From Antedon bifida (lineage: Eukaryota; Echinodermata; Crinoidea; Comatulida; Antedonidae), in contig OY727096.1 of NCBI GenBank assembly GCA_963402885.1, positions 30,919,820 through 30,983,819 of the forward strand: a stretch of 64,000 nt of DNA, in the 5' to 3' direction. The translations under genes and the position numbers were made by a program. Under the pieces are notes generated by a model, which searched no databases, had not been told where the DNA came from, and worked only from the letters and a program-made list of their open reading frames with translations. Of the stretch, positions 15,960 through 60,800 are shown in pieces. Within the stretch, counting starts at the first letter, position 1, and the number at the start of each line of letters is the position of its first letter.

Positions 15960-16330
15960 ACGGTAATTGCTGAAGTGGATCACATTTGGCACCGGTGGAG
16001 CACAGTGATATAAAATAGAAATACATCAATAATTTAAATATATTTTCATATATTAATACACTGTGCTCAAGTGAACCAAATTTGGCACCAGTGGAGCAGT
16101 GATATAAAATAGAAATAAGTCACTACATTTCAATATCTTTTCGTATGTTAATAAACTGTGCTCAAGTGGACCCAATTTGGCGTCAGTGGAGCACACTCAG
16201 TGATATAAAATACAAATAAAGTCACTGAATTTTAATATCTTTTGTATGTTAATACACTGTGCTTAATTGAACCCAATTTGCCGGGGAGCACAGTGGTATA
16301 TAGAAATAAAGTCACTAAATGTTAATACAT
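15960..16330. repeat. Left subterminal tandem repeat of the 3.1-kb element
   Basis: About 3.5 units of roughly 105 bp. Each has GTGGA/GTGAA, a CCAATTTGGC-like word, GGAGCACAGTGATATA, AATAAAGTCACT and ACACTGTGCT. It is inverted relative to the right-end array at 18595-18900. Confidence 0.75.
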
Positions 16331-27800: not shown

Positions 27801-30800
27801 ATCTATGTGTAAAGTTCAGAATCTATTAAAGAAAATTGCATGATATAAATACTGTGCCTTGTTGTTTGTCCTGGGTTTGTTATGTTTTTTTATACTGATT
27901 CACGAAGGAAAGGCACTTTGATTAAGTTGAAGAGGGCCTAGGTGTTTTGTTAAGAACCACATTGTCTAGCCTACTGTATGGTATAAACGTAGAGTACACC
28001 AGCAGTGAAGTCAACTGATACTATGTATCGATCAATGATGGCCATGTGTCTTCAGAAGAAGACGGCAACAAGAACAGTAACAGAAAAATGGCCTAATCTG
28101 AAAATTAAAAATGAATTGATTGCTTTGGTATAAGTATAGATATTTTTCTATTGATTATTAATATACATTTCTGCAGTCTACACATTCAACTTTACACATT
28201 AAATTGATAGTTCTACACTACAGTATGATGTGGACATATGATGTCATATCACCACCATATTTGGGCATAGCACTACCATATTTGGGCATAGCACTACCAT
28301 ATTTGGGCATAGCACTACCATATTTGGGCATAGCACTACCATATTTGAGGCCATCACACTTGTTTTCAGTGTTGTTTGATAGTGTAGACAGAGCTTAAAA
28401 ATTGTCTTTCTACTTAATAACCCAGCCATTTTTTAAAGCACAGCTGATAATATAGGCGCTCATGATGATTTCTTTAATTGTTTTCTCTATAAAAACATGC
28501 AGAGAGATTTTTTAATTAATTTCTAGTAGAGTTTATGGAAAGGTCATTTCAGGTTAATGCTGTCTAGAACGTGATTCATTTCTTCTTTTATAGAGAATAT
28601 TTTTATATATATGTTTTTATCTGACTCTGAGTCACCTCCTCCATAACTGCACCCATGGACTGGCATAACATTGCAATCTTGTAATATTGGGAAAGAATGG
28701 ATTTTTTTTAGAATAATAGTCCAGTACCATTTTGTGTCTGTTTATAATTTCGACCTTGTAAGCGATGCAATAAGATGAATTTGATCTCTGTAAATAATAA
28801 TAATGATCTCATAAAATTGTACCAACAAATACTAAACTAGACATGAAACTCGTCACTTTGACGAGTTAGTTATCCGCACCACGACAAACGCCACGTGCAC
28901 GTCATACGTTGGAATATTGCACACAGATAAAGATTATGGCATTATGACAAGAACTGAAGAATATGACATGCTGTTAGTGCTGAATTTTGTGTCATATAGT
29001 ATATACATGCAAACAGTATAAGCTCTATACATATTACATACAGTGTAGAATAGGTGAAATTACGGGACCCGCCATTTATTCCAATTTTTAACATGGCGAC
29101 GGTATCAAAATGAAACACTTAGATAGCAATTTCAGAAGGAAATTATCTCAGGAACAACATATTAACGTGTAGAAGAAATTTGAATACGTAAAATATAGAT
29201 GCGCACCCTTTTAAATGTGATGAACTATTACGCAAAATATGAAAATACAACTTTTTTTATTCAACTGGCCATATGATGACGTCACAACATCCGATTGGCA
29301 AAATGTTTACATGAATTCGTATCTACAATCCAATAGCTTCCAGAAAACGTTTTAATCGTGATTATCACATTTTATTCTTACGAGCTATTACAGATTAAAA
29401 TTTACTGTAAAGATGAAATTAATGACCCACGTAATTAAAATTTTTAGGCATGATGACGTCATAAAAATTAAAATATTTTTATCTCATGCTAAAGAAAGTT
29501 GATTGACCTACACAATATATAAATGTAGGAGAAAAAAGAATACAGATAAGCGCGATGCGCTCCATTGAATGTGATGAGCAATAACGAAAGAGACAAAAAT
29601 CCTATATTTTACATTCGTGTGGCCATACGATGACGTCACAATGTTTTTTTAGCCTTATTGATGCATGATCCGATATCTACAACTCATCAACTTCTAGATT
29701 TTGTAATAAAAATAAACGGTTAACGGTTTACTTTAGAAACTATGACTGTTTAAAAAAAGACATAATTTTGACGATTTTTTAAGCTTTTTCATAAAAAACG
29801 CGCACGAATTGTCTAATTCAACGTGTTCGTATGGCGTTATTTAAACTGGAAAAGGTCTAAATTGTTTTCAAAATCACTGGGAAAGGCTTGAAAAATATAA
29901 TTCAAGAGAAAAAAATATGTTTTTAACGCTATGTGCGGACCGCGCGCATAAAAAATTGCGCGCCCGTGGGAATTTTTGACATGCTCAAAATGACAAGAAA
30001 CGCGTAAAAAGTTGATTAGAAATTAATTTTGCGCATTTTGAAATTTTAAATGCGTGTGCGCGCGTAACTTCTTGTCAAACATGCCATTTTTAATCCGTAG
30101 AAAGTTTGCCGCTGATATGACTTAAATTTTTTCAAAGTGTCAATACTAAATGACTTTTGGTTTTTAATCTATGATCAATCATTGAAATTCATAAAATTGC
30201 GCATAAGTCACGTTGCACAACTATGACGTCATTCAAAAATAGGAGGTGCACAACTTCACGTAAATGCCCATATGTTGTCAAAGTTATGAAATGTTATGTT
30301 TACACATTTTAGAGGAACACGACTCACAAAAAGGAAGGAAGGAAAGAAGAACTAGACATGAAACTCGTCACTTTGACGAGTTAGTTATCCGCACCACGAC
30401 AAACGCCACGTGCACGTCATACGTTGGAATATTGCACACAGATAAAGATTATGGCATTATGACAAGAACTGAAGAATATGACATGCTGTTAGTGCTGAAT
30501 TTTGTGTCATATAGTATATACATGCAAACAGTATAAGCTGTATACATATTACATACAGTGTAGAATAGGTGAAATTACGGGACCCGCCATTTATTCCAAT
30601 TTTTAACATGGCGACGGTATCAAAATGAAAGACTTAGATAGCAATTTCAGAAGGAAATTATCTCAGGAACAACATATTAACGTGTAGAAGAAATTTGAAT
30701 ACGTAAAATATAGATGCGCACCCTTTTAAATGTGATGAACTATTACGCAAAATATGAAAATACGACTTTTTTTATTCAACTGGCCATATGATGACGTCAC

Positions 30801-33800
30801 AACATCCGATTGGCAAAATGTTTACATGAATTCGTATCTACAATCCAATAGCTTCCAGAAAACGTTTTAATCGTGATTATCACATTTTATTCTTACGAGC
30901 TATTACAGATTAAAATTTACTGTAAAGATGAAATTAATGACCCACGTAATTAAAATTTTTAGGCATGATGACGTCATAAAAATTAAAATATTTTTATCTC
31001 ATGCTAAAGAAAGTTGATTGACCTACACAATATATAAATGTAGGAGAAAAAGGAATACAGATAAGCGCGATGCGCTCCATTGAATGTGATGAGCAATAAC
31101 GAAAGAGACAAAAATCCTATATTTTACATTCGTGTGGCCATACGATGACGTCACAATGTTTTTTTAGCCTTATTGATGCATGATCCGATATCTACAACTC
31201 ATCAACTTCTAGATTTTGTAATAAAAATAAACGGTTAACGGTTTACTTTAGAAACTATGACTGTTTAAAAAAAGACATAATTTTGACGATTTTTAAAGCT
31301 TTTTCATAAAAAACGCGCACGAATTGTCTAATTCAACGTGTTCGTATGGCGTTATTTAAACTGGAAAAGGTCTAAATTGTTTTCAAAATCACTGGGAAAG
31401 GCTTGAAAAATATAATTCAAGAGAAAAAAATATGTTTTTAACGCTATGTGCGCACCGCGCGCATAAAAAATTGCGCGCCCGTGGGAATTTTTGACATGCT
31501 CAAAATGACAAGAAACGCGTAAAAAGTTGATTAGAAATTAATTTTGCGCATTTTGAAATTTTAAATGCGCGTGCGCGCGTAACTTCTTGTCAAACATGCC
31601 GTTTTTAATCCGTAGAAAGTTTGCCCCTGATATGACTTAAATTTTGTCAAAGTGTCAATACTAAATGACTTTTGGTTTTTAATCTATGATCAATCATTGA
31701 AATTCATAAAATTGCGCATAAGTCACGTTGCGCAACTATGACGTCATTCAAAAATAGGAGGTGCACAACTTCACGTAAATGCCCATATGTTGTCAAAGTT
31801 ATGAAATGTTATGTTTACACATTTTAGAGGAACACGACTCACAAAAAGGAAGGAAGGAAAGAAGAATAATACAGAAAAAAAATATTGATCTCATACAATT
31901 ACAAGGAGTTATCCGCTTGGTATACCAAGCGGATAACTAATAATACAGAAAACTAGATTTGAACTCGTCACTTTGACGAGTTCGGGTTATCCGCGCAAAC
32001 GCAACATGCACATACGTTTAAACTATATGAACGCCGACAATTATTATGCCATCCTATGACATGAATTAAATATGTTTACAGTGCTGAATTGTACCTATTT
32101 TGTAGCATACAGCAATTTACAGTATTTACAGAATACATTGTATGTTATATACAGTGTAGCATAGACGAAATTACGAGACCCATCTTTTAAATCCAATTAT
32201 TAACACGATGACGTCATCAAATTGACATATAAAGATAACTATTTTAGAAGATAATTATCTAAATAATTACATTAATACAAATTTGAAGAATTTTGGGCAC
32301 GTAAAAGTGAGATGCGCTCTCGTTTAAATGCAATGAACTTTTACGCAAGAGATGAAAATATGACTTTTTGAATTCAACTGGCCATATGATGATGTCACAA
32401 CATCTGATTGGCAAAATATTCACATGAATTCGTATCTACAATCCAATAGCTTCCAGAAAACGTTTTAATCATGATTATCACTTTTTATTCTGACGAGTTA
32501 TAACAGATTGAAATTTACTGTAAAGATGAAAATAGGTGACCCACGTTATTTACATTTTTAGACATGATGACGTCATAAAAGTTAAAATATTTTAAACTCA
32601 TGCGAAAGATAGTTGATTGACCTAGACAGTATTAAAATATATGAGGAAATGGAATACGTATAAGCGAGATGCGCTCTATTTAATGTAATGAGCAATAACG
32701 AAACAGTCAAAAATCCAATATTTTACATTTGTGTGGCCATACGATGACGTCATAACATCCGAGGGGTAAAGATTCTGCGTGAATTCATATCTACAACATA
32801 TCTGCTTCTATATTAAATTTAAAAAATTGGGGGTAACGGTTGATCCTGAGGAGCTATAATAGATTCAAAATAGGCATAATTTTGACAATATTTTGTCACT
32901 TTTGCAACTAAAACGCACGCAAATTGTCTAAATCAACGTGTTCATATGACGTCATTTTAATTTGAAATGATGTCAATCTTTTTTAAAATGACTACGATAG
33001 GCTGTAAAATCATAATTCAAGAGAAAAACACATGATTTTCATGCTCCGCGCGCACCTTACGCGTAATTTTTTCCGCGCGCGTGGGAATTTTTGACATGCT
33101 TAAAATGTCATGATCAGCGTAGAAAGTTGATTAGAAATTAATTTTGCGCATTTTGAAATTTTAAATGCGTGTGCGCGCGTAACTTCTTGTGAAACATGCC
33201 ATTTTTAATCCATAGAAAGTTGACCCATGATATGAATTATAATTTTATTAAGTTTCATAAAAGAATATTTGTTGGTTCTAAAGTTATGATCAGTTATAGA
33301 AATTCATAAAATCGCGCGTAACTTATGCAACGCGGATCTGACATCATCGAAAAGCTTGGCTGCACATCTACACTTCAATGTCAATCTTTTTACCAAGTTA
33401 TACAAAGTTATGTTCACAAGCAATAGGGGATATGCTGTAGACAAAAATCCGGGAAAGAAAGAAGAATAACAAAGAAGATGATGAAGAAAAAGATATTTAC
33501 AATCACATGGGTTATCCTGCAACTAAGTTGCGGATAACCAACTAGATTTGAACTCGTCACTTTGACGAGTTCGGGTTATCCGCGCAAACGCAACATGCAC
33601 ATACTTAACTATATGAACCTCAACAATTATTATGCCATCCTATGACATGAAATAAATATGTTTACAGTGCTGAATTGTACCTATTATGTAGCATACACCA
33701 TTACAGTATTTTACAGAATAAACTGTATATGTTATATACAGTGTAGCATAGACGAAATTACGAGACCCATCTTTTAAATCCAATTATTAACACGATGACA

Positions 33801-36800
33801 TCATCAAATTGACATATAAAGATAACAATTTTAGAAGACAAATTTGAAGAATTTTGGGCACGAAAAAGTGAGATGCGCTCTTGTTTAAACGCAATGAACT
33901 TTTACGCAAGAGATGAAAATATGACTTTTTGAATTCAACTGGCCATATGATGACGTCACAGCATCTGATTGGCAAAATATTCACATCAATTTGTATCTAC
34001 AATCCAATAGCTTCCAGAAAACGTTTTAATCATGATTATCACTTTTTATTCTGACGAGCTATAACAGATTGAACTTTACTGTAAAGATGAAAATAAGTGA
34101 CCACCGTTATTTACGTTTTTAGACATGATAACGTTATAAAAATTAAAATATTTTTAATTCATGCGAAAGATAGTTGATTGACGTAGACAATTTTAAAATT
34201 TCGGGAGAAATGGAATACGTATAAGCGAGATGCGCTTTGTTGATGAATGTGATGAGCAATAACGAAAGAGTAAAAAATCCTATATTTTACATTCGTGTGG
34301 CCATACGATGACGTCATAACATCCGAGTGGTAAAGGTTCTGCATGAATTCATATCTACAACATATCTGCTTACATATTAAATTAAAAAAATTGGGGGTCG
34401 TGGATGATCCTGAGGAGCTATAATAGAATAAAAATAGGCTTAATTATGACAATATGTTGTCACTTTTGACAAAAAAAAAAAACACATGATTTTCATGCTC
34501 CGTGCGCACCTTACGCGTAAATTTTTTCGCGCGCGTGGGAATTTTTTACATGCTCAAAACGTCATGATCAGCGTAGAAAGTTGATTAGAAATTAATTTTG
34601 TGCATTTTTAAATTTTAAATGCGCGTGCGCGCGTAACTTCTTGTGAAACATGTCATTTTTAATCCATAGAAAGTTTGCCCTTGATATGACTTAAATTTTT
34701 ACCAAGTGTCAATACAAAATGACTTTCGGTTTATAATCTATGACCTATCATTGAAATTCATAAAATTGCGCGTAACTTACGCTGCGCGACTCTAACGTCA
34801 TTAAAAATATGGAGGTGCACAACTTCAGGTAAATGTCCATATAATGACAAAGTTATACAAAGTTATGTCTACAAAAATTTGAGATATAGCTGCAACAAAA
34901 ATCCGGGAAAGAAAGAAGAATAAAGATGAAGAAAAAGAAACGTGACAATAACAAGGGTTATCCGCAACTAAGTTGCGGATAACCAAAAAATATTGATCTC
35001 ATACAATTACAAGGAGTTATCCGCTTGGTATACCAAGCGGATAACTAATAACAGTTTTGATTTCCAAATTGTTGTTATTAGATTGAACCTGTCTGTCTCC
35101 CAGTTATGATATGGCGATTGAACCATAATGCCCTGTCAACCATACTATAACAATTGTTGTTTTTTTAAATTGACCGAAATTTAAAAACAAACACAGTGAC
35201 CATGACCTTTGACCCACTGACATCCCATTGGCTCAGCTGTGACATCTGATATTCATAAGCAATTCTAAAGATATTTCTGTAAAAAAATCCATGTTCATAT
35301 CTTTTTCTAGATATTGATTATGTTATGCTATCTGACAATGTATTGATCTGTTTACGTCAAATTGTCCCGGAAATCGACGAGGCAATTACCATCGACACCT
35401 ATGAAAATTGATCTACCCGTCATTATAATTAACAAAATGCTTTATAATCTAATTCTATAATTATTACCATCTGTATGGTTAATTATTAATTAATTGTTTT
35501 TAATAGTTATTATACAAAGTCTAATAGTATTAGTTTCTTTAGTGATACTGTAAATTGTAGTTTTACATTTTAAACAGAAATATTCTGTTTGGAACCATGT
35601 GTTTTTATTGTATTGTGTATCATGTATGTCGATGTGTGTGCAATTATTTATTTTTTTTACATTTTATTTGTTCTTTTACTTTTAGTTTTAAAAAGAATTT
35701 TAAAAGGAGTATAACGTTCTATTTATTATAAATGGTAAATTTTGCTTTAAATGCAGTTAGAAACAGACAATCAAAATAAATCTAAATAAAAGAATAGAGT
35801 CGACAGTCTAAAAAGTTAGTGAGAAAGGGGAAACCTAAATGACCATCAGAAATGTGTTACACAGTCATGCAATAATTAAAGAAAAAACAAATTATATACA
35901 GTAGAGAAACGGTACTATACGGCATACTTTCTGCGGCATATCGTCAAACAAAAATATTATTTTCATATCGACTGCATTTCTGCTTCCAAATTACCATTTA
36001 AATCAGTAGTTGTAGTAGTTGGGTGGGTGGTTGTTGATGAAAACATTTAAAATACCCAAAATATCAAAAAGCTCTGATGTGACAGTAGTTGACTGAAGGT
36101 CAGTGGCAGTCAATCAAATAACAGTTGTTGTAATAACTGGTTAAATGGTGTTCTAACACAATTGATTGATTGTTTTTAACCATTATTTTCAGGCTGCCAT
36201 TTAATAACTGGTTATTGAAAATTTGTCCTGTTTCTGCTGCCAAATTAGTAGTGTTAATTTATTCACACGATTAATAATCGGTTATTCTTTTGCAGAAGAA
36301 ACATGACCCTAATAGAAACATTGCTAATATAATGCTTTTGTGACCTTTATCTGGGGTTGTATCCTCTGAAGCTTTCAGAGGCTTTAAAGATCCATCTGTA
36401 ATGTGCTTTTATTGCCTTACAATATGCTCACATGGCTTAAAATTGTATTTATTACACTTCAGGTAGCTTGACATCCCCTAGCAGTGCTTTTAAACTTTAA
36501 TTTATGTGCTATATGTTTAGGATATATTAGGCCTTGGCAAACTATTCTTTACTAGCAGGCTTAAAATTGATACTTTATGAGTATTTTGACATAAGAATGA
36601 CAATGACATTTTAATTTACTAGTCATAGGGTAATTTTTACTTGATGTCATGTCTTGCAATGTCTTGTTTTATAAGTGAAAATATGATTTTTACCTGAAAA
36701 GTAAATGATCTTTTTCTGGACTATACTATTTTTGTAGAGGGGTGTTAAATGAAAATGTCTACTTTTTTAGTTCTATCTCGCTCTTTTGAGGAAAAAGGCT

Positions 36801-39800: not shown

Positions 39801-42800
39801 AACCCTCTACAAAACTATACCTTCCTGATTTGTTTCTATAACATTGTACAGTACAATGCCACTTTTGGTGCAATTATCATCCACGTCAATTTTTTATAAT
39901 TCTATTTATAAAATATTCACAACACATATCGTATATACAAAATGATTGATTGTATACAACCTACCGCCATAAACATAATGAGACGTACTAATATCTTTTC
40001 CATGTAATAATCTGTCATTATTACCCAATGATAACATTATCAAGCATAAATTCTTTATTAATATCAAATATTCACAATAACAGACAAGGTACGGTATAGT
40101 ACTGTAAGGAAATTAATGATTGTATACAACCTAACTGCCATAAACCTAATGGGGTAACTAATGTCCGTTGCATGTAATAATCTATCATCATTATTAGCCA
40201 ATGATAACATTATCAAACACATACAATCTAGTAATAGAATGAAATATTCGAAATACAGTTAGTATAGAATGACAACATTGTAATTGTATAAAAACTTTCT
40301 TTAATAAGCCTATATAGGGTACAAATTTCACTTTATACTGTAGGTAAATAACCTATCATTATTAATATATAAGCCAATGATAAAACAAAAAAATTCTCTA
40401 AAAAATGAAATATTCACAATGTACAGTTACTAGAAGGAAATTAATAATTTTTGTAAACCACCTACAGTACGGTCATAAACCTACAGTATGTGGTATGAAT
40501 ATCAATTTCTAAAGTAATAATCTATCAATATTATAGCCAATGATAACATTATCAAACACATTAAAATTAATACAATTTACAGTGTGTAGAGAAGGAAATT
40601 ACTGATTGTAAACAACCTACTGTCATAAACCTAATGGAACTAATCACTGTCATAATCTATTATCATAGCCAATGACAATTTAGAACACATCCTTTCTGAT
40701 ACATAATGAAAATATGATTCACAATGCAAGCATATTGACAGTAGAATGAAATTAATGATGTGTATATTAACTACCACCTACACGTTTTATCATAACCTCA
40801 GGATGAAGTACATTTTACATTTTTTCAAGGTTGCGAAGATGAACGTGTTACACAAAGACATCTTCTTGACTCAGGAAGATTTAATACATTCTCTCTCATT
40901 CATTAAATGATAATAAAATACTCTATTCTTAGATAAAGAAAGCAAGTTTCAATGTATTAAAGCATTCAACGCAAATTAGACAATATTTGCGTCACAGCCA
41001 GTGTATGGATCTTGAAGAAAAACAAATCTTTAAATGTTCTTCAAGTGTTTTGATAGAATGAATTTGAGAACTATAGTAATTAATTATATTGTGATTATCA
41101 AACGATTTTATCAGAGGAAATTGCAAAACATGTTTTTAGAGAATATAGGAATAAAAAAAATATTTTATGAGATCTTACTGTAGACAAAATACTTAAAATA
41201 ACAAATCGGTATACGACACTGGCTATTATTAGTCAATGATAAAAAATACAAAACTGTATTTAAGTAAGATTTGAACTCGTCACTTTTGACGAGTTAGGTT
41301 TTTATCCGCGTAAACGCAACATGCACATACATACGTTGAAAGAAATACGAATGCAGAAATTTACTTTAGTTTATTCGCATCCCAGTGTAAGCCCACATTA
41401 AGCCCACACTCAGGTCTAAGCACACACCTTGGTATTATAAGATACACTTAAGTGCACCTCTAGTGTAAAAAGCCTGCACCTTTTGGGTTGAATAATTTTC
41501 ATGTAAATTATCCAAGTCCAATATTAACTTTGGTTTGATTTTATTCCTAAAAAAGACCCACAACACATTAAAGGCCATGTAAGACTATGTAGTGTACAGT
41601 ATTATAGGTACCCTGCTTTATGTACATAAGTCAGTGTGTGCCAATTTGATCTTAAAACAGCTGAGAGATACTGTACGTGCTAACGTCACACTGGTAAATT
41701 ACACCAGGTGAAAATGAATGAACCAGTAGGTGTCATTGTTTTAAGACCAACGTCCGTATTATTATGCTGTACGTGTTAATTTTGCAAAGGGCTCTGTCTC
41801 TTGTGGGTGTTATTTAATCATTCATCAGTTAATTAGTATAGTATAGTAGGTTATTTTGTCTCATCATAGAAATACAGGTACTGTACAGTAGGTATGTATC
41901 TATACAGAGGATATCCGTCATCATGGCAAATAAAATAATTTATAAGTTATTTTAATTTTCTTTAATTAGCATTTCATTTACAGTATTAACACAGTTACTG
42001 TACAGTAGGTATTTAAAAAAAAATCAAGACATTTTTGGCTCTCCCTCTATATGAAAGCAATCAATATTTCTGGTTGAATTGCTTTCACTTGTTCAATTTC
42101 AATTATATCAATTACTTTGGAAATGTGTGAGCGTATTTTGATTCAAGTATCACGATTTCCCCACTAGGTTTAAGAAGATTGCAATTATATCATAAGCGGA
42201 CTTCAATTCACAACCATCTTAAATTAAATGTGCATTTCCTTCACATACTTTTTCCATGACTATAATTGTACGTGTTTGTGGATGTTGTCTCTTTGGCGGT
42301 ATGTGATTATAGTATAAATAATCTAAAATCTTTAATTTTACTTAACACATTTTTCAAAAATTGTGGTACATACAGAAAATGAGTCAAATTATTTTAGTAA
42401 TTACCGTGTAGATGTTTTGACTTTTTATAAGTAAAGTACAGTAAAGTAGAAGTAGTAGATTCCAACACTTTTGTTTACTGTATCTTAAATGTAGGTCAGA
42501 TGTAAACATTGTGTTTGCCACTGTCAACTTTATTCATAATGAACACAATTTAGAATCGTATCAGCAATGAGATTTACTTTTCTAACATTTTAATTAACAT
42601 TTCAAGTAAAAGGTTAAATGATGATGCACGTCGACAAGTGTTTTTCATCCATGGTGAATAATTTCACGAGTCTAAAGTAGGTAAACTTTGGATAGATATA
42701 TTGCAATAGTTACCACTTACGTTTTATTGTTCTAGCTAAATATCACAGCGTGCTTTTTGCCATCAGAGTACTAGAAATTATGTTTGTATTCTCTTACTGA

Positions 42801-57800: not shown

Positions 57801-60800
57801 CTATAGAGGATGTGCTATAATATTTAGAAAACAACCCCAAACTATATTATGGCGCTATTAAAAAATAGAAAGATATTGGCATAACAGAAACATCGGTATA
57901 TTTCATGGCGTACCAAAGACGGAAAATGTTGTATTTTAGCAGGAAATGACATGAAATATCTGGAGATTATCGCTATTATCGGAAGAGTTGGGAGGTTTGC
58001 AACTGTTTTTTTTTTGTGCTAAAAGTTTAGTGTCAGTATTTTGTTTCACTTTGTTTCAAGAAAATAGTAAAATAATGGAAGTTTGATTTGGGAGACACCC
58101 CATTCCTGGTGATAGTGGTTTCTCTACTCTCGGCACTCCCTTCCTATTGAACAGTTATCTACAGAAAATCTAATGTAATGTGGATTTGTGCTTAATCAAA
58201 TTGTAAATTGGATTTCCGTATTAGAAATGTGTTTAGTATGTAATACAATTCAATAAACAAACTGGTTTTTTTTCTTTCATGTATATTTTTCAGGTATTTT
58301 TTTTTTTAATTATTCTATGGAGATTTTATTTAAATTATCATATTTTAATCTTTTTTTAATTAAACTGAACTTTTCAACACAATTTTCTGTTGTCGATTGT
58401 ACATAAATATGTATGTAATTTGCAAATTTGTATTGTAAACTTGTATTGTAATTGCTGTGATACTCTGATCTTTGCTAAACTTTAAAAACACTATAGTATT
58501 TCATACTGTCATTCTTCCTGACCTTGGAGTATTTAATCAGATAATTTATTTCACCTTATTTTATTATTATGAATATACAGTACAACAGTGTGCTTCCATT
58601 TTATGATATCTTCATATTTTTTCATTTTCATAAAATCCCATGCGGCTATGCGGAGGGGGCCCTACAGTATGCAATTTATAATTTACAAAACCCTAACTCC
58701 AAAAAGTCTGAACAGGCCCTAACAAGATCATTAACAACAAACCAGTAGATTAAAATATTATTATATAAATAATTTTTTTTTTTTAATAATATTTTGTTTC
58801 CAATAATTATATCACCTATATTGTTATGGTTACTATATATTTCACTTTTGTAGTTTGAATTTTTATAAATATTTTGTTTAATAATTGTGTGCATCACTAT
58901 TTGTATTAGATTTCACGGTTGGTTGCACCTTGTTTCGAAAAGAAATAGAAAGAAAAAAATGTCTGCACATACTTGCAAACCAATACTGTTTGTGGCAGCT
59001 TCAAAGATACCATATTATACTATGGTACTAGTCACTGAAGCTATCACAACATAATTGGGGAGCAGACCTACAGATGTTTTTACATGCATTACATACAACA
59101 GAAATATATTTATATATTCGATTATAATTTATTCTAATGCCTGTAAATATATAATTATCTCTTCGGAGATCCTGATTTGTGAATTCATATACTGAGTAAC
59201 AAGGAACATTTTCGCCAGTGTAGCGTAGCAAAAAGCTATACAAAACAACCTTATTGCTACACATTTTGAAAATTGTGTAGCAAAAAATACAATACAAAAC
59301 TATGTTTCTTGACTTAAAAATCAGTTTGATTAGCAATATTGCTAAACAAAATTTTTAAATGAAAATTTTCCCTGAGTAAAGGTTGAGGGCAAACAGTATC
59401 TCCGAGAGTGTTAAAGAGTCGCTATCCAATCGAATCCCACTGCATATCAAGCAGAAGCTCTGTGTTTCAATCTCGGTTGGGGCGGCTTTTTCACATTCTC
59501 ACAAATTCTCTCATCTTTATTAAATTAGACACTTACCTTATGTATTTGGTATATCTGCAGTCACAAAATCATTTTCATGTCAATACAATATTCAAGTATA
59601 TCCATGCCCACATTTGTTCATTCAGTTTCTAATCTAGTAATAAAAAAAATGTTCATCCTTATTATCTTTTTAATAATAATTGAAAGTTAAATAAAAAAAC
59701 AGTTCTGTCTACACTATCAAATTTGATGTGCCAATATATATGGACACGATGATGTCATATCACTATCATTCAATATATATAATCTTAAATGTTAATGTAA
59801 TTAATGATGTCTTTATTTAGTCTTATGAGGATTAGCAGTATAGTTCGTCCAAGAACAGCAAGCGAAGGGGAATTCCACTATCGTGGAGGGCGAACACCCG
59901 ACAGGTTTGTCAGATTTACAAATATATGAAACCTTTGTCTCTTGCGCTTTATAAATGTTATTTATTATATTGGAACACTTTCGTCTGGTTAATAAGAGCA
60001 ACGTGCAACTACGTAGCTGTTGAGTCAAAAGGTCATTCTGCACACACTCAGAAACATGAGCACACAAAGAAATATATAAACACACTCAGAAACATATGAA
60101 CACACTCAGAAACATATGAACACACTCAGAAACATATGAACACACTCAGAAACATATCGAAACACTCAGAAACATATCAACACACTCAAAAACATATGAA
60201 GACACTCAGAAACATGAACACACTCAGAAACATAAGTACACTCAGAAACATATGAACACACTCAGAAATATATGAGCATACTCATTAACATATGAACACA
60301 CTTAGAAACATATGAACACACTCAGAAACATATCAACACACTCAGAAACATATGAAGACACTCAGAAACATATCAACACACTCAGAAACATATGAAGACA
60401 CTCAGAAACATATGAACACACTCAGAAACATATTGAAACACTCAGAAACATATGAACACACTCAGAAACATATCAACACACTCAGAAACATATCAACACA
60501 CTCAGAAATATATGAGCACACTCAAAAACATTAGGATGCACATGATTACATTGACTCAATATCTACACAGTTGCGCGACACGCTATGTATAATTGAAAGG
60601 TCGCTAATGTTGTGATAACAAATAACATTCCTTTTTTTTGACAAACAAAAACAAAATTTGAACTTTATTGGTTAGCATTTCATACTTCTTTAAGTGGTCT
60701 CTGGTTGACAATGTTTTAAATTGAGGCATTCTAATTTGTTTTTGTTTGCAAAAAAAAAAACTTTTATCTTTCTAAAGTATTATAGTATACATGTTTAACA

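Follow-up and report, generated by a model that had tools for sequence, protein, structure and literature searches.

We analysed a 64,000-nucleotide stretch of the genome of the crinoid Antedon bifida (contig OY727096.1, forward-strand positions 30,919,820 to 30,983,819; hereafter the window, positions within which count from its first nucleotide), in which four related units, A to D, stand in a row at 28837-35048 and are repetitive genome-wide. We concluded that this array consists of four complete non-autonomous elements that arrived as separate insertions in, or directly against, resident 5′ ends: A was resident first, B and C inserted into the leader of A, and D abuts the 5′ boundary of C. 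The evidence supports their assignment to the non-autonomous rolling-circle elements of the HINE/Helentron-proto-Helentron type. Beyond the window, the best explanation is very probably that complete rolling-circle units form arrays by serial insertion at the leaders and 5′ ends of resident copies. Skipped terminators or multimeric circles are the usual explanation for tandem Helitron arrays, and a first interpretation of the array, made from its letters alone (the sequence-only reading), had followed that line.

Four separate insertions in one array

The presence of four units at this place was confirmed, as were several of the features that had been ascribed to them. A and B were nearly identical (99.3%, at a spacing of exactly 1515 bp), whereas C and D had diverged to 82-90% identity; CTAG stood at the unit joins, and the hairpin AACTCGTCA-CTT-TGACGAGTT occurred four times. 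The units contained seven stop-to-stop frames of at least 60 amino acids, and a search of these frames for a long reading frame found none above 94 amino acids, in keeping with the claim that no enzyme is encoded. The length of 1515 bp originally given to both A and B stood as their spacing and not as their size: the full-length unit is 1589 bp, and 1515 bp is A minus its split-off leader.

Read in the orientation of the elements, the array begins with the left part of the A leader and continues through D, C, a middle piece of the A leader, B, and the rest of A (Table 1). D, C and B each span from TTRG to CTAG, and the parse leaves zero bases over. Excision of B, C and D rejoined the A leader with no net gain or loss, identical to that of B at 114 of 114 bp, and rejoined A, B and C were all 1589 bp long. 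No target duplication was found in the rejoined A leader. The perfect 32-bp palindrome that occurs twice in the array, each time within a 67-bp stretch identical at both sites, is the 5′ end of A at one site and the 5′ end of B at the other; it had been taken to close an A-B pair and a C-D pair.

That tandem dimers had been inserted twice, the origin first suggested for the array, was likewise not upheld. Besides the parse into separate insertions, C was closer to units on two other contigs (one on C1, locus L056, at 93.7% over 1590 bp, and one on C8, locus L058, at 93.8% over 1543 bp) than to D, which was itself 95% identical over 631 bp to a unit on C12 (locus L005). Two tandem dimers are ruled out for the window array by the identities of C and D and by the exactness of the parse. 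A and B, in addition, had no private variant in common. Among 18 young A-type units the variants were nearly all private; three were common to two units, two of these linking different arrays and the third linking two units of the array on C7 and being present in older relatives as well. Taken alone, the private-variant pattern could also fit a multimer of one consensus source.

Table 1. Parts of the array and their end structures, in window coordinates
Feature	Position	Strand	Remarks
Element A, first of 3 pieces: 5′ end (palindrome P1), then spacer to fourth T of T-run, 62 bp	34987..35048	-	rejoined pieces match B leader, 114/114 bp
Element D, complete, 1445 bp, TTGGTTATCC...CTAG, exactly 5′ of C	33542..34986	-	82-90% to C; 95% to L005 unit over 631 bp
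Element C, complete, 1589 bp, within T-run of A leader	31953..33541	-	93.7% to L056 unit, 93.8% to L058 unit
Element A, second of 3 pieces: leader remainder TTTTCTGTATTA, between C and B	31941..31952	-	
Element B, complete, 1589 bp, in A leader at CTGTATTA^TTCTTC	30352..31940	-	
Element A, last of 3 pieces: body plus 3′ end, 1515 bp (all of A, 1589 bp)	28837..30351	-	
5′ palindrome P1 of A, 32-bp perfect	35015..35046	.	DNA fold -15.4 kcal/mol, z -9.9
5′ palindrome P1 of B, same sequence as in A	31907..31938	.	
5′ palindrome, P2 type, of D	34957..34983	.	
5′ palindrome, P2 type, of C, imperfect, arms differ	33510..33539	.	position by eye
3′ hairpin of A; CTAG end 28837-28840	28847..28867	-	fold -8.3 kcal/mol, z -3.7
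3′ hairpin of B	30362..30382	-	
3′ hairpin of C	31962..31982	-	
3′ hairpin of D	33551..33571	-	

Other features of the window lie outside the array. A lone 3′-end remnant of the unit family, 64-67 bp long and about 90% identical to C and D, is present at 41264-41330 on the minus strand, with an altered CTAG and no body. The 3′ flank of A at 28793-28818 resembles the P1 spacer (26 bp, 77-85%) and is either a decayed leader remnant or a chance likeness. Tandem repeats were found at 28245-28347 (21 bp, about 5 copies, 490 bp from the 3′ side of the array), at 60042-60531 (the 20-bp repeat ACACACTCAGAAACATATGA, about 25 copies) and at 15968-16296 (95-101 bp, about 3 copies).

Termini, polarity and element class

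The 3′ ends examined consist of GCGGATAAC (at times with 1-2 changes), a hairpin, 5-6 nt ending in T, and CTAG, after which a T follows. GCGGATAAC starts about 41-42 nt before the 3′ end and the hairpin ends 9-10 nt before it. The base after CTAG was T in all 38 distinct ends with 70 nt of flank, and in 3751 of 3772 ends genome-wide. On the 5′ side, host DNA gives way to a palindrome of the form TTRGTTATCCGC...GCGGATAAC, whose P1 version folds as a 14-bp stem; all 16 host-side 5′ junctions that were read had TTR followed by a hairpin of the GTTATCCGC...GCGGATAAC type. The base before TTRG, scored by eye at 16 junctions not abutting another copy, was A at 13 of them, T at 2 and G at the remaining one; the target can also be read as TT, the element itself starting with T's. 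In one set of 11 loci, 10 had host DNA running into a P1 module, and in L058 (1540-1714, minus orientation) 5′ palindrome modules stood in tandem at a period of 72-74 bp before a C-type unit. Because the palindromic repeat, its inverted partner and the hairpin match the end marks published for Helentrons, HINEs and proto-Helentrons, we concluded that the elements run 5′ to 3′ on the minus strand. The polarity that had been assumed was thus reversed: the hairpin that had been called 5′ belongs to the 3′ end, the 5′ end being the one with the GTTATCCGC/GCGGATAAC palindromes.

Canonical Helitrons (Helitron1) begin with TC and end in a 3′ hairpin and CTRR, followed by T. The units share with them the 3′ hairpin, CTAG as the CTRR motif, and the following T; unlike them, they begin with TT and not TC, and the 5′ end carries a palindromic inverted repeat. 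Helentrons and HINEs, in the description of their ends in PMC4067079, have a palindromic repeat by the 5′ end, whose inverted partner lies at about 40 nt from the opposite end, with a hairpin just before that end. The criteria for HINEs put a second subterminal inverted repeat (subTIR) about 38-60 bp, and a palindrome 8-35 bp, away from the 3′ end, with insertion at TT or T-rich sites and without target duplication. In the units a palindromic subTIR lies a few nt from the 5′ end, the second subTIR and the palindrome lie 41-42 nt and 9-10 nt from the 3′ end, and insertion is at TT or T-rich sites without target duplication. They resemble HINE/DINE-1 elements, as that source portrays them, in having the subterminal palindromic repeat 2-4 nt from the 5′ end and again near the 3′ end (at about 40 nt), in the 3′-end hairpin, the T-rich targets, the absence of target duplication and of coding capacity, and in their known clustering; set against the same account (PMC4067079), they differ in their defined TTRG...CTAG ends, a mostly A^T target and an array traced to insertion in the 5′ leader. 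A further difference from HINE/DINE-1 is that no internal tandem repeat with a Tandem Repeats Finder score of at least 50 was found in the units, which have a short TTCC run after the leader.

Three other described systems are close. The proto-Helentron of Phytophthora infestans has a 5′ TT, a 3′ CTAG and A^T insertion without target duplication (PMC4067079), and the same TT start (TTRG), CTAG end and A^T target were found here; that element is coding and about 14 kb long, whereas the units are short and gene-less, with Helentron-type palindromic repeats at both ends. FoHeli of Fusarium oxysporum shares terminal hairpins, asymmetric inverted repeats, self-insertion and several 5′ termini before one 3′ terminus, which its describers explained by nesting (PMC5148889); the cases in that account are limited in number, whereas here there are thousands of ends, with split leaders that pair across the genome. 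Cg_HINE of the Pacific oyster is alike in its subTIRs, 3′ palindrome and T-rich sites and unlike in that the tandem repeats lie inside the oyster element, as presented in PMC7492417, while here whole elements are nested. Two other classes were considered and rejected. Satellite DNA would be made of homogeneous units of one period arranged head to tail, in contrast to the mixed subfamilies, split leaders and complete elements at different host sites observed here. Transposons with terminal inverted repeats, including miniature inverted-repeat transposable elements, do not agree with the asymmetric ends or with the lack of duplication in the rejoined leader. The original assignment to non-autonomous elements of Helitron/Helentron type is supported, on the terminal anatomy, the T that nearly always follows CTAG, the rejoined site without target duplication and the presence of Helentrons in the genome.

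Self-insertion joints across the genome

In the 315.6 Mb searched (27 contigs), the exact hairpin AACTCGTCANNNTGACGAGTT occurred 2502 times versus 0 for a reversed control, well above chance, and a looser 3′-end pattern 3772 times versus 7; at about 1.5 kb each, 3772 copies would, by simple arithmetic, make up somewhat less than 2% of the genome. Many 3′ ends run into another copy: the sequence entered is the start of a body for 205, an exact 5′ end for 599 and a leader for 652 of them (controls 0), giving 1456 of the 3772 (39%), a count that misses leader types not ending in TTCTTCTTTC. Among the joints listed for each of these classes (up to 100), inspection by eye found no place shared between classes, and the leader joints broke at many different positions, always before T, as the search pattern required.

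Leaders split by an insertion were also found elsewhere. At L056 the T-run of another leader type has been split by a C-type element, whose CTAG is followed by the remainder of a leader, and in L060 a P1 leader is split in its T-run in the same manner. P1 leader halves numbered 191 left and 121 right genome-wide. Pairing covered 100 of the left halves and 65 of the right ones, those on the contigs of the left list; another 35 right halves on the list were dropped, together with those outside the lists (91 left, 21 right). Among those listed, a left half lay at most 10 kb upstream on the same strand for 41 of 65 right halves, as compared with 2 for the wrong side, 0 and 3 when the opposite strand was taken, and a mean of 0.27 (maximum 3) in 500 random trials. 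Spacings were under 2 kb in 24 of the 41 pairs (1217-1242 and 1579-1624 bp, about one unit) and larger in the rest. In the window and in four C1 pairs read on both sides, the left and right T-runs minus the element's own TT added up, by eye, to the intact 8 T's.

Where insertions land was also seen from the 38 distinct 3′ ends, a sample that counts identical joints once and excludes loci L009-L038 as well as ends without the upstream repeat; its loci were not random, many coming from an A-type query and others being the first hairpins of C1. For 17 of the ends the sequence beyond was a leader or 5′ end: BLAST identified 16, and the other is the C end in the window, whose leader is split again. 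BLAST of the flanks of these 38 ends gave no body match, and none on the opposite strand except the palindromes themselves. T's are not confined to the leader: counts for B, C and D were 36-41 within the first 80 nt and 485-546 in the remainder, so that the bodies contain more than 90% of them. We concluded that self-insertion joints are common and that those in this sample are located in leaders or at 5′ ends, with none in a body.

Several observations weigh against serial insertion at leaders. Eighteen of the 41 pairs have spacings of 1589-1601 bp, as copies of one composite would show, and because of this near-constant spacing neither the 41 pairs nor the 1456 joints are counts of independent events. 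This would be expected if nesting occurred anywhere in resident copies and leader cases became over-represented when composites were remobilised from their outer 5′ end, chimeras of a kind proposed for Fusarium (PMC5148889). We consider this rather unlikely, as the spacings and the T-run break points vary, L056 has another leader type, and a body was the site of insertion for 0 of the 38 distinct 3′ ends. Among those listed, 24 of the 65 right halves had no left half; these may belong to other leader types or to rows outside the lists. The T-run joint at L060, moreover, sums to 7 T's, not 8.

Exact head-to-tail joints joined like with like in 80 of 97 classed cases, where about 51 were expected, and mixed subfamilies in 17 of 97 against about 46; classing was by eye for 97 of the 100 joints listed (599 in all), with one CAAG case taken as A-type. 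Such an excess could reflect cognate targeting or some true multimers. Rolling-circle multimers, in which the 3′ terminator is passed over and tandem dimers insert at once, were the mechanism favoured by the sequence-only reading, and a skipped termination signal is cited as a cause of Helitron arrays in PMC4067079. The frequency of the 599 exact joints and their bias agree with it, as do A-type arrays with fewer leader modules than units; the near absence of variants shared within arrays is also what multimers of one source would give. It leaves unexplained the leader halves that lie one or a few units apart, the joints at many leader positions or between subfamilies, and the place of D beside C at only 82-90% identity, and it is refuted for the window array as a whole; as a general account we judge it quite improbable.

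The module counts pose a separate difficulty. If CTAG|TTCTTC joints arose purely by nesting, one leader module per unit would be needed; the window fits, with 2 units and 2 modules, whereas the C7 array has a single module for 3 A-type units and the C15 array 2 modules for 4. Therefore later unit gain, leader-module loss or true multimers must be assumed there, and a strict Russian-doll origin of every such joint was rejected; nesting was kept as the main process only. The same counts would suit a satellite-like expansion in which an original tandem pair multiplied by unequal crossing-over. Against it, variants shared within an array numbered 0 of 9 in the C15 array and one in the C7 array that is also present in older relatives, and subfamilies are interleaved in L056 and in the window. 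It is refuted as the origin of the window array and has little likelihood as the general origin, and may act later in some arrays.

Two other arrangements were observed in the course of these searches. Nine 3′ hairpins of mixed subfamilies lie within 14 kb at C1:9947669-9961821, the longest array among the C1 matches listed (up to 13.2 Mb). A further subfamily has 3′ ends 1146-1147 bp apart in several places (C12:17458525/17459671, C8:26760668/26761815 and C8:28957733/28958880), possibly a copied composite.

Candidate partner, mechanism and significance

The genome contains 39 matches to PF14214 (Helitron-like N), and one copy that was read through encodes OTU, Rep, PIF1 helicase and exonuclease/endonuclease domains and is therefore a Helentron; a proto-Helentron would have a Rep/helicase of the Helentron clade and lack the endonuclease. 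A HINE would share its termini with a Helentron that encodes Rep, helicase and endonuclease. In this family, F1, both of the 2 copies whose 3′ side was read continue into unit sequence, with the Rep frame antisense to the unit, an orientation also reported from one Helentron of Drosophila and from some elements of Fusarium (PMC4067079, PMC5148889). No 3′ hairpin of the unit type was found in the 2.5 kb before the Rep frame of F1, and a search of its left side with the unit 3′ end gave no clear match among the 40 candidates scored out of 1209. With the Rep frame antisense, no such hairpin before it and the outer ends beyond the stretch read, F1 is a candidate coding partner and not a proven one. 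A fragment beside CTAG at C1:20898158-20898400 had looked like a deletion derivative of F1, of which it is no proof, since the 306 bases read show another short unit joined there. At the 3′ sides of families F2 (L070) and F3 (L072) no CTAG hairpin of the unit type was found within 1.8-2.0 kb, and L070 had only 25-31-bp matches to the window units. By eye, a tandem-repeated segment of some hundred bases lies upstream of a Helentron frame and another after its stop codon (L057 1-1000, L058 3100-4600).

We propose the following scheme. The 5′ end of a unit comprises TTRG and the palindromic subterminal repeat followed by the T-rich leader, repeat and leader making up about 75 nt, and its 3′ end the second repeat copy (GCGGATAAC), the hairpin and CTAG. 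Insertion is directly 5′ of a T, usually after A, without target duplication. A Helentron Rep/helicase acting in trans would copy the unit by rolling circle. The enzyme may be drawn to the 5′ ends of resident copies, or may cut them preferentially, so that arrays would grow by Russian-doll self-insertion; stacked 5′ ends might then be remobilised as composites, and where several A-type units stand in a row, their numbers might later be changed by unequal crossing-over or by leader modules being lost. A bolder version, to which we give somewhat less than even credence, is that the transposase homes to resident 5′ ends through the hairpin repeats common to donor and target. Leaders would then be landing pads, giving ordered arrays and relaunched composites, and the element would be a self-targeting rolling-circle transposon.

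Nested copies and repeated 5′ termini have been described in Fusarium (PMC5148889), and the same source mentions three tandem copies in Metarhizium, put down to repeated 5′-end insertion or to rolling-circle replication. Among the titles listed in one literature collection for Helentrons, HINEs and tandem Helitron arrays, none was recognised as describing a genome-wide habit of leader nesting. Self-insertion and doubled 5′ ends are thus already known from Fusarium; what is new here is the scale and the leader specificity. As the window array can be undone insertion by insertion and its signature counted genome-wide, the way in which such arrays arise can be put to a direct test. Should the leader truly be preferred, this would point to a target choice that depends on the 5′ end of the element itself and would help in understanding how Helentrons integrate.

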